Of a DNA stretch of 64,000 nt, positions 42,847-51,063 are shown in pieces. The notes under the pieces were generated by a model that saw nothing but the letters and a program-made list of their open reading frames with translations, ran no database searches and was not told the origin of the DNA. The translations under genes were made by a program, and so were the position numbers. Source of the DNA: Actinomycetales bacterium (GTDB lineage: Bacteria > Actinomycetota > Actinomycetes > Actinomycetales > Cellulomonadaceae); assembly GCA_020444245.1 (NCBI GenBank), contig JAHLLI010000003.1, positions 186,001 to 250,000 of the forward strand, given 5' to 3'. The first letter of the stretch is position 1. Every line of letters begins with the position of its first letter.

Positions 42847-43554
42847 ATGCATCAAACTCGATCAAACGACACCATCGTGCATGACGTGTCGCTGCCCCGA
42901 TCGCTGGCCGTCTGGCCGCTACCGGCCGGGGCCGCGGCCCTGCTCGCCCGCGCGGCGGTCCGGGCGGCCACCACGACCGTCACGCTCGACGGTCGGGTCG
43001 CAGCCGTGGCGCTGGCCGTCGGCGCGGTGGCCGCCGCGGTCCTCGCGGTGGGCACGACGCTGCTGGTGCTGGGCGCGACGGCACGTGTGGCAGGCCGCCG
43101 GTGGCGCGCGGTCGAGGCCGCGGCGGCCCGGCTCACGCCCCGGCTGCTGCGGCGCGCGCTGGTCGTGGGCCTGGGTGCCGGGCTCAGCGGGCTGGCCGGG
43201 CCCGCGCTCGCCGACACCCCGCCGACGCTCGGTTGGCAGGTCACCGAGCAGGCCGCGGCCATCACCGACACGACCGCCACCACCGACACGACCGCCACCA
43301 TCGACGCCACCGCCACCGCCGTCGCCGACGTCCACCCGGCCGAGCCCACCCACTCCCCGCGCACCGTCGTGGTGCGGCCGGGCGACTGCCTGTGGTCGAT
43401 CGCGGCCGAGCACCTGCCCGACGGCGCGGACGACGCCGACATCGCACAGGCCTGGCCCGCCTGGTACGCGGCGAACGCCGACACCATCGGAGCCGACCCC
43501 GATCTCCTGCTGCCCGGTCAGCGGCTCGTCGTGCCCGACGGGGTCGACGCGTGA
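42847..43554 (+). CDS. LysM-domain membrane protein
   Basis: The product has 235 residues. Two hydrophobic segments (about 25-75 and 100-125) precede a Thr-rich linker with repeated TDTTAT units and a C-terminal LysM domain (VVVRPGDCLWSIAAEHLPDG, ADPDLLLPGQRLVVPDG). It probably binds peptidoglycan outside the membrane. A TAGTTT hexamer ends seven bases before ATG 42847; a GTG at 42841 is too close to it to be used. It is the first gene of a pair with the Rv3235-like gene. Confidence 0.85.
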   Translation: MHQTRSNDTIVHDVSLPRSLAVWPLPAGAAALLARAAVRAATTTVTLDGRVAAVALAVGAVAAAVLAVGTTLLVLGATARVAGRRWRAVEAAAARLTPRLLRRALVVGLGAGLSGLAGPALADTPPTLGWQVTEQAAAITDTTATTDTTATIDATATAVADVHPAEPTHSPRTVVVRPGDCLWSIAAEHLPDGADDADIAQAWPAWYAANADTIGADPDLLLPGQRLVVPDGVDA

Positions 43555-44069
43555 CCGCCACCGCACTCGCCACCCGCCGCCCCGCACCCGCGCCCACGCG
43601 TCCACGACTGCTGCTGCCACCCGTGACCGAGCCCCGGCCCCTCCCGGACCCCCACGAGGTCCTGCTGCGCCACCCCGTGACCCGCTCCGTGCTGCTACCC
43701 GCCGCCGAGGCGGACTGGCCGGTACCGCCCGCCGACCCCGCCTCGCGCTCCGCCCTGCCCGACCCGGAGCCGCTCGCCGGAGCCGTGGTGCTCGCCGCCG
43801 TCGAGGCGCTCGGCGGCTCCCGGCCGCTGGTCCAGCTCTCGCGGTGGGTCACCCCGGCGGTCTTCGAGCAGCTGAACGCCCGGGCGACCACCGCCGCGAC
43901 GACCCACCGGCGGCGTCCGACGATCCGTTCGACGCGCGTGGCGAGGGTGTCGGCGACCGCGGTGGAGGCCTGTGTCGTCGTGCACGACGGCGAGAGGGTG
44001 CGCGCGGCGGCTCTCCGCCTCCAGGTGCACCGACGCCACTGGCGGGTCACGGTGCTCCAGATCGGGTGA
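43551..44069 (+). CDS. Rv3235-family protein (DUF6459)
   Basis: The product has 172 residues. A Pro/Arg-rich N-terminal third is followed by the family core LAGAVVLAAVEALGGSRPLVQLSRWVTPAVFEQL and VEACVVVHDGERVRAAALRLQ, ending HRRHWRVTVLQIG. Members lie near secA in many Actinobacteria; the role is unknown. Its GTG overlaps the LysM gene stop as GTGA. A weak CCCCGCGC/GCGCGGGG stem at 44130-44160 may end the operon. Confidence 0.88.
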   Translation: MTATALATRRPAPAPTRPRLLLPPVTEPRPLPDPHEVLLRHPVTRSVLLPAAEADWPVPPADPASRSALPDPEPLAGAVVLAAVEALGGSRPLVQLSRWVTPAVFEQLNARATTAATTHRRRPTIRSTRVARVSATAVEACVVVHDGERVRAAALRLQVHRRHWRVTVLQIG

Positions 44070-44199: not shown

Positions 44200-44850
44200 G
44201 TGTCCGAGCAGCGGAGCCCCGAGGCGCGCGGCACGCCGCGCGGCCTGTACGCGCTCAAGCCCTGGTACACCCGCCGGCTGAGGGTCGTGGTCGACGGCGC
44301 GGCGCACCGCGGCATCTCGCCGGACGTCTTCACCGCGCTCGGCGTGGTCGCGGCGGTCGGCGCGGGCGCCGCGATCGCCGTGGCGTGGTGGCCGGTCGCG
44401 CTCGTGCTGCTCGCGGCTCGCCTGGCCGGCGCGAACCTCGACGGGGCGGTGGCCCGCGCCCGGGGCGTCTCGCGCCCGTGGGGCTTCGTGCTCAACGAGG
44501 TGGGCGACCGCGCGAGCGACCTCGCGATGTTCGCCGGGCTGACCTTGCTCGCGGTGCGCACGCCGGAGGCCATCTGGGTCGGCCCATCGTGGCCGGCGGT
44601 CGCGTGGGTGCTGACCGCGGCCGTGGCGGCCGGTCTGCCCACGTTCGCCTCGCTCGCGGCCGCGGGCGCCGGCGCACCCCGGCTGAACGGCGGACCGTTC
44701 GGCAAGACCGAACGCTGCCTGGCGGCCGTGGTCGCCGCAGCTGTCCCGACATGGCTGCCGGCGATCGCCGCGCTGGTCGCGGTCGGTTCGCTGGCCACCG
44801 CGGCCGTCCGGCTGGCGCGGAGCCACGACGCGTTGGGCGCCGCCGCGTGA
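44200..44850 (+). CDS. CDP-alcohol phosphatidyltransferase (YnbA-like)
   Basis: The product has 216 residues and about five membrane helices. The signature [16 protein letters not shown] then [11 protein letters not shown] follows the CDP-alcohol motif D-G-x2-A-R-x8-G-x3-D-x3-D, but with Asn in place of the second-last Asp. As I recall, E. coli YnbA has the same LNE-x-GD form and a similar GPFGK segment, present here as [11 protein letters not shown]. It should move a phosphatidyl group from CDP-diacylglycerol to an unknown alcohol. GTG 44200 follows TGGAGG; TACGGT at 44143 may be the promoter. Confidence 0.85.
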
Positions 44851-45773
44851 GCGCTTCGCGCGCCGTGCTGCCCGCGGCCGACCCGCTCGGCGACTGGCTC
44901 GGCTGGGACCGCACCGCATGGTGGACCCTCGACCTTCCGGTGCTCGGACACCTGGAGGGCCGGGCGACCTTCCTGGCCGGGCTCTCCCTGGTCGTGCTCG
45001 CCCTCGCGGCCGTGCCCGTGTTCGCGTCCCGCAAGCCGGAGCTACGCCGGCGATGGACCACCTGGGCGATCCTCCTGCCGGTGGTCGGCATCCCGGTATG
45101 GCTCGGCCCGGGCCCGACCGCCGCGCTCGCGATCGTTGCCGCCCTCCAGGGCGTGCGTGAGCTGGCCCGGCTGCTCGACCTGCCGCGCGCCGAGGTCGCG
45201 ATCCTGGCGGCGTTGTCGGTGTTCTACCCGCTCGCCGCGTGGCTGCACCCCAGCTGGCTCGAGCTCGCGCCCCTGCTCGCACTGATGTGTGCGGTGCCGT
45301 CGGTGCTGCGCGGCGACACCGTGCACGGGACAGAGCGCGCCGCGGCCACCGCTTTCGGCTCGATCTGGGTGCCGTGGGCCATGGCCCACCTGGTGGTCGT
45401 GGGGTCCGACGCCTACCTGCTGTTCCTCGCGGTCGCGGCGACCGACGTCGCGGCGTGGGCCGGCGGCACCGGGCTGGCGCGGTTCGCCTGGGCCAGGCGG
45501 CCGCTCACGCCGTTGTCACCCAACAAGACGGTCGGGGGGGTTGTCGGAGCGCTGATCGGTGGGACGCTCGTCCTGACACTGCTCGGCGAGCTGTCGGCAG
45601 GACTGGTGATCGCGGTGGTCGTCGGTAGCGTCGGAGGGGACCTGGTGGAGTCGATGGTCAAGCGATCCGCGGGCGTCAAGGACGCCGGCGACTGGCTGCC
45701 CGGGTTCGGCGGGCTGCTGGACCGGGTGGACTCGCTGCTGTTCGTGCTCCCGCTGGCGGCGGTGCTCGGATGA
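44847..45773 (+). CDS. Phosphatidate cytidylyltransferase, CdsA paralogue (YnbB-like)
   Basis: The product has 308 residues with eight or more membrane helices. The CdsA signature is near the C terminus: [20 protein letters not shown] then GLLDRVDS. The usual PGHGG is PGFGG, with His replaced by Phe, while the KD and DRVD metal residues remain. It makes CDP-diacylglycerol from CTP and phosphatidate, here next to its user. GTGA overlap with the gene before and ATGA with the gene after. The essential cdsA is expected elsewhere near frr/pyrH. Confidence 0.9.
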
Positions 45774-47179
45774 CCGACGCCGACCACCCGCACCGCCCCG
45801 GGCTGGCCGAGCAGGCGCAGACCCACCTCGCCGAGGCCCAGACCCACCTCAGCGAGGCCCAGGCGCGCATCACCGCCCAGGCCCACAGCCACCTCGCCGA
45901 CGCCCAGGCCCGCCTGGCCGAGGCGCAGTCCGCCCTGGGCGAGCAGGCCGCCCGGGTCGGCGAGGAGGTCATGCGGGTCCGCCGCCGCGTCGGGCTGCCG
46001 CCGGGCTTCAACCTCGCAGGCGCTGCCCGCCACCGGTTCTGGCGCTCGGTGTTCCAGCTCGTCGGCGGCTTCCGCGTGACGGGCTCCGCGCCGTACCAGG
46101 CGATGGTCGTCGCGGCGAACCACCAGTCGCACGCCGACACCGCGGCGCTCCTGGCAGCGATGCCCGCGCCGTACAAGCCCGTCGTGGTCGCCGCGGACGA
46201 CTACTGGTTCGACTCCAGGTGGCGGCGCACCCTGCTGTCGCTGGCCACCGGCGGGGTCCCGGTGGACCGTGTCACCGGCGGTGGGTACGCGAGCCTGGTG
46301 GCGGGCGCGGAGAAGGTGCTCGGCGCCGGGTCGACGCTCCTGGTATTCCCCGAGGGCACGCGCAGCACGGACGGCACCCTGGGCCCGCTGCACCGTGGTG
46401 CGATGCGGATCGCTCAGGAGTTCGAGGTCCCGCTGCTGCCGATCGCGCTGGTGGGCACCGGAGCGCTGCTGCCCAAGCGCGGCCGCCTGCACCCGGCCGC
46501 GGTCGAGGTGCGAGTGGGCACGGCCATCGCCCCGCAGGACCTCACCTCGATGGACCAGGTGGCCGACCAGCTGCGCGAGCTGCTCGACCGTGGTCCCGCG
46601 GTCCCGGGCGTCTCACGCACGTGGCAGGCGGTGCACCGCTTCATGGCCGGGCCGGGCGGGCCGATCGGCGCGTTCGCGTGGTCGTTCGCCGAGGCGCTGT
46701 CCTGGCCGATCACCTCAGAGGCGTACCTGCTGTTCGTCGGCGCGGCCCACCCCCGCCGGATCCCGGCGGCCGTCGCGATGCAGGCCCTGGGCTCGACCGC
46801 GGGCGTGCTGGTGCACGGCGCCCTGGTGCGCCGCGGGCACCGACCGCCGACGCCGTGGACCACCCCCGCCATGCACGCAACCGCGGCCGAGCACCTCACG
46901 GCCGGGGTCAGCGGCATGTGGCGCCAGGCACTCAACGGCGTGCCGGTCAAGGTCTACGCCCGCGCCGCGGCCGAGGCGGGACTGGCCGGGGTGCCCCTCG
47001 CCGGGCACACCCTGGCCGCCCGGGGCGCGCGTGCCGTCGGGTTCGGCGCCGCGATCGCCGCTGGCGCGTGGGCCGGGCACCGCGTGCTGGAGCGCGCGTA
47101 CGGGCCCTACCTCACCGCCAGCGTGACGACGTACCTCGCCGGGCTCGCTGCGGTCGTGCACCGCTGGCGGCGTCGCTGA
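45770..47179 (+). CDS. PlsC acyltransferase with N-terminal amphipathic repeats and C-terminal DedA/YqaA-like domain
   Basis: The product has 469 residues, about twice a plain PlsC. Residues 10-65 hold repeated HLAEAQ/HLSEAQ units forming one long amphipathic helix. Residues 85-270 are the PlsC domain: [10 protein letters not shown] (HX4D), [10 protein letters not shown] and PIALVGTG. Residues 290-460 look like a DedA/VTT protein of the YqaA kind: [39 protein letters not shown] and [16 protein letters not shown] then RGARAVGF. Acylation of a lysophospholipid and its transbilayer movement could be joined here; the DedA call is by pattern only. ATGA overlap with cdsA. Confidence 0.82.
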
Positions 47180-47182
47180 GCG

Positions 47183-50098
<2,916 letters not shown>

Positions 50099-50120
50099 GC
50101 TCGCTCCATGGTCGGCGGCG

Positions 50121-50140
50121 CCGGTGCCGGACGGCACCGG
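50121..50140 (-). terminator. Small hairpin between the EamA gene and secA
   Basis: CCGGTGCC, GGAC, GGCACCGG: eight-base perfect arms and a four-base loop, just past the EamA stop and 23 bases before secA. Confidence 0.45.
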
Positions 50141-50157
50141 ACGAGGTCCGTGGGCGC

Positions 50158-51063
50158 TCAGCGCACCTGGCGCGGACCAGCAGCCATGGTAGGCGCAACT
50201 CGCAGCACGACGATGCTGGACACCAGCAACGCCCCACCCAGCACCCCGATCACCCCGAGCTGCTCGTCGAAGATCAGCGCCGCGCCCACCGCGGCGGTCA
50301 GCGGCTCCAGCAGCGCCACCAGGCTCGCCGCGGTCGCGGGCACCGTCCGCAGGCCGGAGAAGTAGGCGCCGTACGCCAGCGCCGTCGGCCCGAGCCCGAG
50401 CCACACGAGCAGCCCGACCGCGACACCGGTCGTCGGCCGCAGCGGGCCGCCGAGCAGGCCCGCCACCGGTGCCAGCAGCAGCGCTCCCAAGGTGAACGCG
50501 ACGCCGGTGAGCTCCAGGGCACCCAGGCCCGGCGCCGGCGCGCGGTTGACCACCGTGATGGCGGCGAACGCGGCGGCCGGGACCAGCGCGAGCAGGGCGC
50601 CGAGCACGGGTGCGTCACCGCCGGCCGGCGCGCCGAGCAGCAGCACCAGCCCCACGAGGGCGAGCGCGAGGGCACCGACGGTCCGGGGCGAGGGCGCGGA
50701 CCGGGTGAGTGCGGCCGTGGCACCGGCGACCATCACCGGTGCGGCACCGAGCGCCACCAGGGTCGCGGTGCTCACCGAGCCGAGCGCCACGGCCGCGAAG
50801 TAGGCGCTCTGGTAGACGGCGGCGAGCACCCCGGTGACCACGATCCGCGTCACCACCGCACGCGTACGGGGCACCCGGTGCAGCCGCCCGGCCAGCGCCA
50901 GGCCCACGAGCAGCAGCACCCCACCCACGCCGAGCCGGTAGGCCCCCACGGTCAGCGGGCCCATGCCCTGCTCGGCGAGCGCAGCTCCGGTCAGCCCACC
51001 GGTCCCCCACAGCACCGCGCCGACCACGACCAGGGCCAGGTCGCGTGGGCGGGTCTGCGTCAC
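50158..51063 (-). CDS. EamA/DMT-superfamily exporter
   Basis: The product has 301 residues, ten predicted helices and two EamA repeats ([19 protein letters not shown] and [20 protein letters not shown]). Members export amino acids, nucleosides or drugs; the substrate cannot be read. The start at GTG 51063 is supported by TAGGGT six bases upstream. It opens the accessory block between secA and hpf. Confidence 0.9.

Follow-up and report, generated by a model that had tools for sequence, protein, structure and literature searches.

Analysis of a 64,000-nucleotide stretch from an Actinomycetales bacterium of the Cellulomonadaceae (assembly GCA_020444245.1, contig JAHLLI010000003.1, positions 186,001 to 250,000; hereafter the window) revealed three overlapping genes which together carry four parts: a YnbA-like CDP-alcohol phosphatidyltransferase (gene 1), a YnbB-like paralogue of CdsA (gene 2) and an acyltransferase of the PlsC type (LPLAT) that is joined to a VTT-like domain (gene 3). 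The cassette is real and recurrent, occurs in fused and separate forms, and includes a transferase whose active site, taken to be fixed in its family, is naturally altered. The explanation that we favour, with slightly better than even confidence, is that it is an accessory, apparently mobile cassette which makes and distributes one special phospholipid, the VTT part moving this lipid across the membrane.

The linkage of the four parts was followed in three samples of genomes, taken from the order (396 genomes), the phylum (396) and the class (208), with the transferase as the entry point. The YnbA-like transferase was found in 22 distinct genomes; the three enzymes were together at the locus in 21 of them, the VTT-like part was present in 18 and all four parts in 17, although these genomes are related and the occurrences are not independent events. 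LPLAT and the VTT-like part were separate in 4 of the 17 four-part genomes and fused in 13. In the order sample, the transferase was detected at E 1e-22 or better in 11 genomes, and in all 11 a VTT-like part lay within about 3 kb, together with CdsA and LPLAT. Searching the same sample for the VTT-like part gave matches at E 1e-6 in 66 of the 396 genomes, of which only the 13 matches of at least 73 bits were followed; 11 of these adjoined the transferase, the others being those of G069 and G801. The remaining matches scored at most 49.9 bits, and some were classical DedA genes already found with PF09335. Three of the 13 strong matches (window, G097 and G069) are rows of the search profile, A5, while ten are not, and three of these ten (G036, G803 and G821) are closely related to its rows.

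The order of the genes differed among the loci. The arrangement transferase-CdsA-[LPLAT-VTT] was observed in the window, G036, G821, G803, G097 and G588, and the arrangement [LPLAT-VTT]-transferase-CdsA in G547 and G573, while G730, G514 and G555 carried transferase-LPLAT-CdsA with a separate, divergent VTT gene. The phylum sample added G155, G347 and G140, all with the fusion, and G165 with four separate genes; the class sample contained 8 genomes with the transferase, 4 of them new, and G852 and G845 among the new ones carried the fusion. That LPLAT and the VTT-like part are fused here and separate elsewhere points to a joint function. The candidate LPLAT neighbours of a classical DedA gene in genomes of family f5 (L047, L048 and L019) were not counted, as other predicted genes lie between the two.

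Several loci weigh against an explanation in which the four parts work together. The VTT-like part was not at the locus in 4 of the 22 genomes (G209 and G485 of the phylum sample, G891 and G929 of the class sample), all of them with the three enzymes, nor was it found in the six proteobacterial loci that were read, indicating that transport is not universal to the pathway. G147, of the phylum sample, has transferase, CdsA and VTT and no LPLAT on its 7-kb contig, G801 has a separate VTT-like gene alone, and G013, a close relative, has CdsA and the fusion with no transferase match on a contig that starts inside CdsA. G069 carries the fusion with no CdsA or transferase match within the 12 kb read; G004 carries it on a 3.4-kb contig that starts at or inside CdsA and has a weak CdsA trace (E 1.7e-4); and in both of these close relatives the sole transferase found by profile is canonical.

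G069 and G004, where the fusion occurs without a variant transferase, would agree with a salvage of lysophospholipids. In this alternative the VTT part would bring lysophospholipids from the outer leaflet to the inner one, where the fused acyltransferase would re-acylate them, as LplT/Aas do in E. coli, while transferase and CdsA serve a neighbouring need. Fusions of LplT and Aas are known (PMC11416262). On the contrary, the VTT gene of G730, G514 and G555 is divergent from the transferase, with LPLAT downstream of the transferase; G147 has VTT beside transferase and CdsA with LPLAT missing from its contig; and 21 of 22 transferase loci contain both LPLAT and CdsA, a count that was entered from the transferase side. 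Salvage was therefore regarded as unlikely, though as the alternative to be taken most seriously. To judge by the divergent VTT-transferase pairs, the VTT part would carry the product of the transferase.

The homology of the C-terminal domain of gene 3 is supported by profile methods. The family set consisted of 23 members, the window included, of which 20 came from loci with CdsA or transferase and the others from G004, G069 and G801. Compared by hhalign with 21 DedA proteins, this set gave 97.0% with E 1.1e-10, while in the controls for this run reversed DedA gave 0.4%, ten column shuffles 0.1-0.2% and the transferase, CdsA and LPLAT families 0.1-0.3%, the maximum of the controls for the 23-member comparison being 0.6%. 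The 14 sequences of the window clade alone gave 79.3% (E 1.6e-5) and the six separate-gene members 95.4%. A profile of 11 sequences of the VTT-like domain matched in 8 of the 396 phylum genomes, namely the window, five other cassette loci, the undoubted VTT protein L095 (E 5e-10 to this profile; 54.9 bits to PF09335) and one hit, G472, which was the weakest (E 9.3e-4) and was set aside because its frame looks by eye like a histidine kinase. VTT_dom was matched below the cut-off by 4 of the 15 distinct members scanned against Pfam (G730, E 1.2e-5; G801, 2.2e-4; the fused domain of G852, 0.0026; G514, 0.004), and an Azospirillum protein that carries a third-party annotation as YqaA family also matches that of G730 (E 2e-5).

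Alignment of the domain placed E308 and E317 of the window protein opposite E39 and D51 of YqjA, two residues shown earlier to be essential, as cited in PMC10846249. In a set of 24 sequences (the 23 family members and L095), position 308 is acidic in 23 and position 317 in all 24, while G345, P392, K394 and R418 do not vary at all, whether the domain is fused or separate. The single sequence without the first acidic residue, which has Gly instead, is that of G004 (L014), whose contig carries no transferase and a weak CdsA trace; this member may be decaying. These results support the homology of the C-terminal domain with VTT/DedA, on the YqaA side, and thereby bear out the DedA/YqaA features that had been read from the gene 3 C-terminus before.

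Some properties of the domain weigh on the other side. No match was obtained with the window domain against Pfam, PF09335 included, at E 10, and the first 11 fused sequences alone gave 64.4% against DedA with controls up to 1.2%. YqjA R130 aligns with A387 of the window domain and R136 with V393, the invariant K394 being one column off; however, since the undoubted VTT protein L095 also has no basic residue at these columns (Ala and Tyr), the missing arginines mark the YqaA side and do not exclude the domain from the superfamily. Whereas the 21 DedA proteins contain 2-6 segments of 19 residues with a Kyte-Doolittle value of at least 1.6, and other family members 0-4, the window domain contains none, and for this reason it may have ceased to span the membrane.

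This weak hydrophobicity, the missing PF09335 match and the existence of three-enzyme loci with no VTT-like domain are what would be expected of a degenerate anchor or scaffold which keeps the acyltransferase near its partners and transports nothing, the cassette then just making a lipid. We regard such an anchor as improbable, because it would hardly need an acidic residue at position 308 in 23 of 24 sequences and at 317 in all 24, nor the four invariant residues, and because separate VTT genes would not act as anchors.

Gene 1 was a borderline match to Pfam CDP-OH_P_transf (PF01066; cut-off 22), with 21.7 bits, 21.9 bits in another scan and 22.2 with neighbours in frame, and its nearest NCBIfam models were archaetidylinositol-phosphate synthase (56.8 bits, cut-off 180) and phosphatidylinositol-phosphate (PIP) synthase (43 bits, cut-off 170). 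Its identity to E. coli K-12 YnbA is 27%, and both have the same Asn-Glu motif, in agreement with the YnbA likeness and the Asn variant that the original prediction had pointed out. In the signature of the CDP-alcohol phosphotransferases, D1xxD2G1xxAR...G2xxxD3xxxD4, eight residues have been termed absolutely conserved (PMC4634129). Gene 1 keeps D2 (D81), D4 (D103), G1, A, R and G2 and departs from the full signature at D1, which is Ala, and at D3, which is Asn. YnbA-like proteins have Asn at the D1 site, and members of the window's clade have Ala there and Asn at the next residue; at the D3 site, all cassette loci read have Asn, with Glu directly after it. Among 30 loci read from the transferase search of the 396 phylum genomes, the D1/D3 variant was present in all 8 top matches (at least 88 bits) and canonical D1 and D3 in all 22 lower ones, and the three other PF01066 proteins of the window's genome also have the canonical motif. 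With Asn-Glu at D3, D1 lost and a CdsA paralogue adjacent, gene 1 belongs to the YnbA-type, or Asn-variant, group as delimited in this analysis. The motif Arg is gone as well (AVE or AIE) in the alphaproteobacterial sequences L051, L224, L225 and L226 and the actinobacterial sequences L215, L216 and L217, so that in these seven three of the eight residues are lost.

The best solved match of gene 1 was 6h53 (E 1.5e-5), which is taken to be the PIP synthase PgsA1 of M. tuberculosis since the residue numbers fit PMC6506517 and PMC4634129. This closest solved relative has the full D1-D4 motif, whereas the window transferase is without D1 and D3; K135 of PgsA1 aligns with Ser and S132 with Thr, while its R155 and R195 align with R172 and R204 of gene 1. 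In the M. tuberculosis PIP synthase R155 and R195 bind inositol phosphate, and mutating them harms its use (PMC4634129), so that this alignment slightly favours a phosphorylated alcohol as the acceptor; R204 has no matching Arg in the two enterobacterial proteins of the alignment.

The loss of D1 and D3 tells against an ordinary transferase, and could mean that the activity is changed or abolished. In PgsA1, Mg-1 is held by D1, D2, D3 and substrate phosphates, and D4 is presumed to be the base (PMC6506517); as two of these ligands are missing, the transferase must have either a remodelled metal site or an altered chemistry. A dead transferase, or one of other chemistry such as hydrolysis or a CDP-diacylglycerol-binding regulator, in an operon that tunes the levels of phosphatidate and CDP-diacylglycerol, would agree with the absence of D1 and D3 from 8 of 8 cassette enzymes and with the further loss of the motif Arg in the alphaproteobacterial and three actinobacterial forms. 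On the contrary, alignment of 12 sequences of actinobacteria, alphaproteobacteria and enterobacteria, the window transferase and E. coli YnbA included, revealed that D81 (D2), G82, G95, N99 (the D3 site), E100, D103 (D4), D107, K169 and R172 are invariant. That D2, D4, the new Glu100, Lys169 and Arg172 are the same in actinobacteria and in E. coli speaks for an active site under selection, and altered chemistry is thus quite improbable. A role in anti-phage defence was dropped, as none of the three proteins had a PADLOC match at E 0.01.

Gene 2 scored 127 bits against CTP_transf_1 (PF01148; cut-off 24), had 4q2g as its solved match (E 1.3e-12) and is distinct from the other CTP_transf_1 gene of the genome. 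It retains the C-terminal signature of CdsA, KR...KD...GG..DR.DS, and ends like YnbB, except that PGFGG replaces PGHGG. The acyltransferase domain of gene 3 contains both PlsC-type motifs, HX4D (NHQSHAD) and EGTR (FPEGTRS); it scored 67.6 bits with TIGR00530, under the cut-off of 102.95, and has a solved relative, 5kym (E 6e-11). The N-terminal extension of gene 3 matched an Apolipoprotein model at E 0.28 only; in the window, L014, L038 and L039 the region was compared, and near-repeats were seen in some relatives and no extension in others. In the congener G011 (L044:5376-7081), a short C-terminal stretch replaces the VTT-like domain behind LPLAT and is followed by an alpha/beta hydrolase gene that recalls YnbC of the E. 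coli operon.

The position of the genes in the genome (4.41 Mb in 44 contigs) was examined next to that of relatives, the nearest named ones returned in the gene 3 search being Cellulomonas sp. B6 and C. iranensis. Coordinates are given in Table 1. The junctions of genes 1/2 and 2/3 are GTGA and ATGA, confirming the overlaps of four bases each that had been described. The gene on the left flank is presumably Rv3235-like, a name taken over from the original prediction, and 33 of 39 genomes, counting that of the window, had a match to its protein. Of the loci read in 29 relatives, 26 have secA convergent within 1.5 kb of this gene, and secA is not beside it in L145 (contig end), L156 and L159. 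The two genes almost touch in the two closest relatives (in L139 one match ends at 2010 and the next begins at 2017). In G016 the trio and an intact Rv3235-secA pair lie on different contigs. Because of this adjacency in relatives and the intact pair of G016, with its trio elsewhere, the trio is, as judged from the neighbourhoods, an insertion between the Rv3235-like gene and secA in the window's lineage; the claim that it interrupts a conserved neighbourhood thus stood.

Table 1. Features of the cassette and its flanks (positions in the window).
Feature	Position	Strand	Remarks
YnbA-like CDP-alcohol phosphatidyltransferase (gene 1)	44200..44850	+	216 amino acids, GTG start
Variant active-site motif, gene 1 residues 78-107	44431..44520	+	D1=Ala (Asn next), D3=Asn then Glu
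CdsA/YnbB-like phosphatidate cytidylyltransferase paralogue (gene 2)	44847..45773	+	308 amino acids, GTG start
PlsC-type acyltransferase (LPLAT) fused to VTT-like domain (gene 3)	45770..47179	+	469 amino acids, ATG start
N-terminal Ala/Gln/Glu/Arg-rich extension, gene 3 residues 1-73	45770..45988	+	varies or missing in relatives
Acyltransferase domain, gene 3 residues 109-227	46094..46450	+	PF01553 76.3 bits, cut-off 23
VTT-like (YqaA-side) domain, gene 3 residues 267-469 and stop	46568..47179	+	E308, E317, G345, P392, K394, R418 conserved
Rv3235-like gene, left flank of insertion	43551..44069	+	matches in relatives
secA, right flank, convergent	47183..50404	-	open reading frame as listed; true start probably further in

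The genome carries three other CDP-OH_P_transf (PF01066) genes, another CTP_transf_1 gene (contig C27) and another acyltransferase match. These support the view, already taken in the original prediction, that the cassette would be accessory to the other lipid-synthesis genes. PF09335 had four matches above the cut-off in this genome, and a classical DedA gene (66.9 bits) lies at G000:C8:185326-185697, just before base 1 of the window (186001).

The three enzymes were also found together on plasmids of Mycobacterium branderi, Rhizobium, Citrobacter, Nitratireductor, Paracoccus and Sinorhizobium. When plasmids were searched with the window transferase, M. branderi was the sole match at E 1e-5, and the window VTT domain gave none at E 0.01. 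The M. branderi plasmid (864-kb record; L050:5452-7567) carries a transferase-CdsA-LPLAT trio with no VTT part, its transferase being 60% identical to that of the window. On the Nitratireductor plasmid (L224:4033-6639), LPLAT, CdsA, a 128-amino-acid hydrophobic protein and the transferase overlap by 1-4 bases and sit between genes for glycerol-3-phosphate uptake and inositol catabolism; the hydrophobic protein gave no convincing match to the VTT profile. The Citrobacter genes (L052:4361-9947), for transferase, CdsA, LPLAT, hydrolase/methyltransferase and phosphatase, are located on an IncF-type plasmid near a Tn3-family transposase and form a larger version of the ynb operon.

Phospholipid synthesis proceeds from lysophosphatidate to phosphatidate, CDP-diacylglycerol and finally the phospholipid. 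Following this order, the acyltransferase domain would convert lysophosphatidate to phosphatidate, the CdsA paralogue would use phosphatidate and CTP to form CDP-diacylglycerol, and the YnbA-like enzyme would pass the phosphatidyl group on to an alcohol, which might itself be phosphorylated, as in a polyol phosphate. By way of the VTT-like domain the product, or with lower probability a precursor, would then reach the opposite leaflet, and the fusion would set the carrier next to the first enzyme of the pathway. The gene identities, the recurrent four-part linkage, the VTT homology and the conservation of key residues were observed, and it is the mobility, acceptor, product and transport of the cassette that we infer. 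As the three enzymes catalyse consecutive de novo steps, a supply of phosphatidate is a more economical role for the acyltransferase than the remodelling of acyl chains. The original prediction of a synthesis-and-sidedness cassette accordingly held as regards what the genes encode, the Asn variant, the assignment to VTT/YqaA and the accessory character, and gained from the recurrence of the four parts in fused and separate form, while its remodelling role was replaced by phosphatidate supply. E. coli YnbD has a dual-specificity phosphatase domain (96.6 bits; PAP2 matches are below the cut-off), and by analogy such a phosphatase might just suit a lipid phosphate as the product of a YnbA-type pathway. 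More tentatively, and as something we would doubt rather than expect in all its parts, the genes could form a make-activate-transfer-translocate cassette for an undescribed phospholipid, mobile in actinobacteria, with a rebuilt metal site and a VTT scramblase dedicated to the product.

Proteins of the VTT/DedA type move lipids in both bacteria and animals, and to our knowledge the cargo of most members is not known. Fusion and tight linkage here name candidate enzymes for the synthesis of a VTT cargo, so that cargo and carrier become testable together in one small operon; on the more tentative reading just given, a VTT/DedA-type protein would be tied by fusion to the synthesis of its own cargo. 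The transferase breaks a motif called absolutely conserved, and as a natural variant it gives access to the metal mechanism of a large enzyme family; the cassette also gives context to the E. coli YnbA/YnbB pair. No such cassette was described in the open-access literature searched by titles and abstract openings, in line with the earlier statement that no characterised system of this make-up was known, although the subscription literature lay mostly outside the search and this is weak evidence of absence. The papers judged in this way include one about a Brucella operon of 16 genes in whose text the enzyme names occur (PMC9491525). The same titles and abstract openings gave no functional study of the ynb operon.

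Comparison with known systems placed the cassette among several partial relatives. With the DedA/VTT superfamily, which includes YqjA, YqaA and the undecaprenyl-phosphate flippases that some DedA proteins are (PMC12893004), the window domain has in common the acidic pair and the Gly, IPxK and Arg positions, and it differs in being below Pfam detection, weakly hydrophobic, fused to LPLAT and without an equivalent of R130. The E. coli ynbABCD operon starts with the same pair, an Asn-variant transferase followed by a CdsA paralogue, and its Citrobacter plasmid form has LPLAT between the ynbB-like and ynbC-like genes; unlike the cassette, ynbABCD has an extra hydrolase/methyltransferase and a dual-specificity phosphatase, and a VTT-like part was not found in it. 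LplT is a major-facilitator protein and not a VTT protein, while MprF aminoacylates an existing lipid with domains unrelated to those of the cassette. LplT-Aas resembles gene 3 in coupling a lipid mover with an acyltransferase, sometimes by fusion (PMC11416262), and differs from the cassette in having neither CdsA nor the transferase. The clearest precedent for synthesis coupled with translocation, as proposed for the cassette, is MprF, which couples lipid synthesis with transbilayer movement (PMC11980842).

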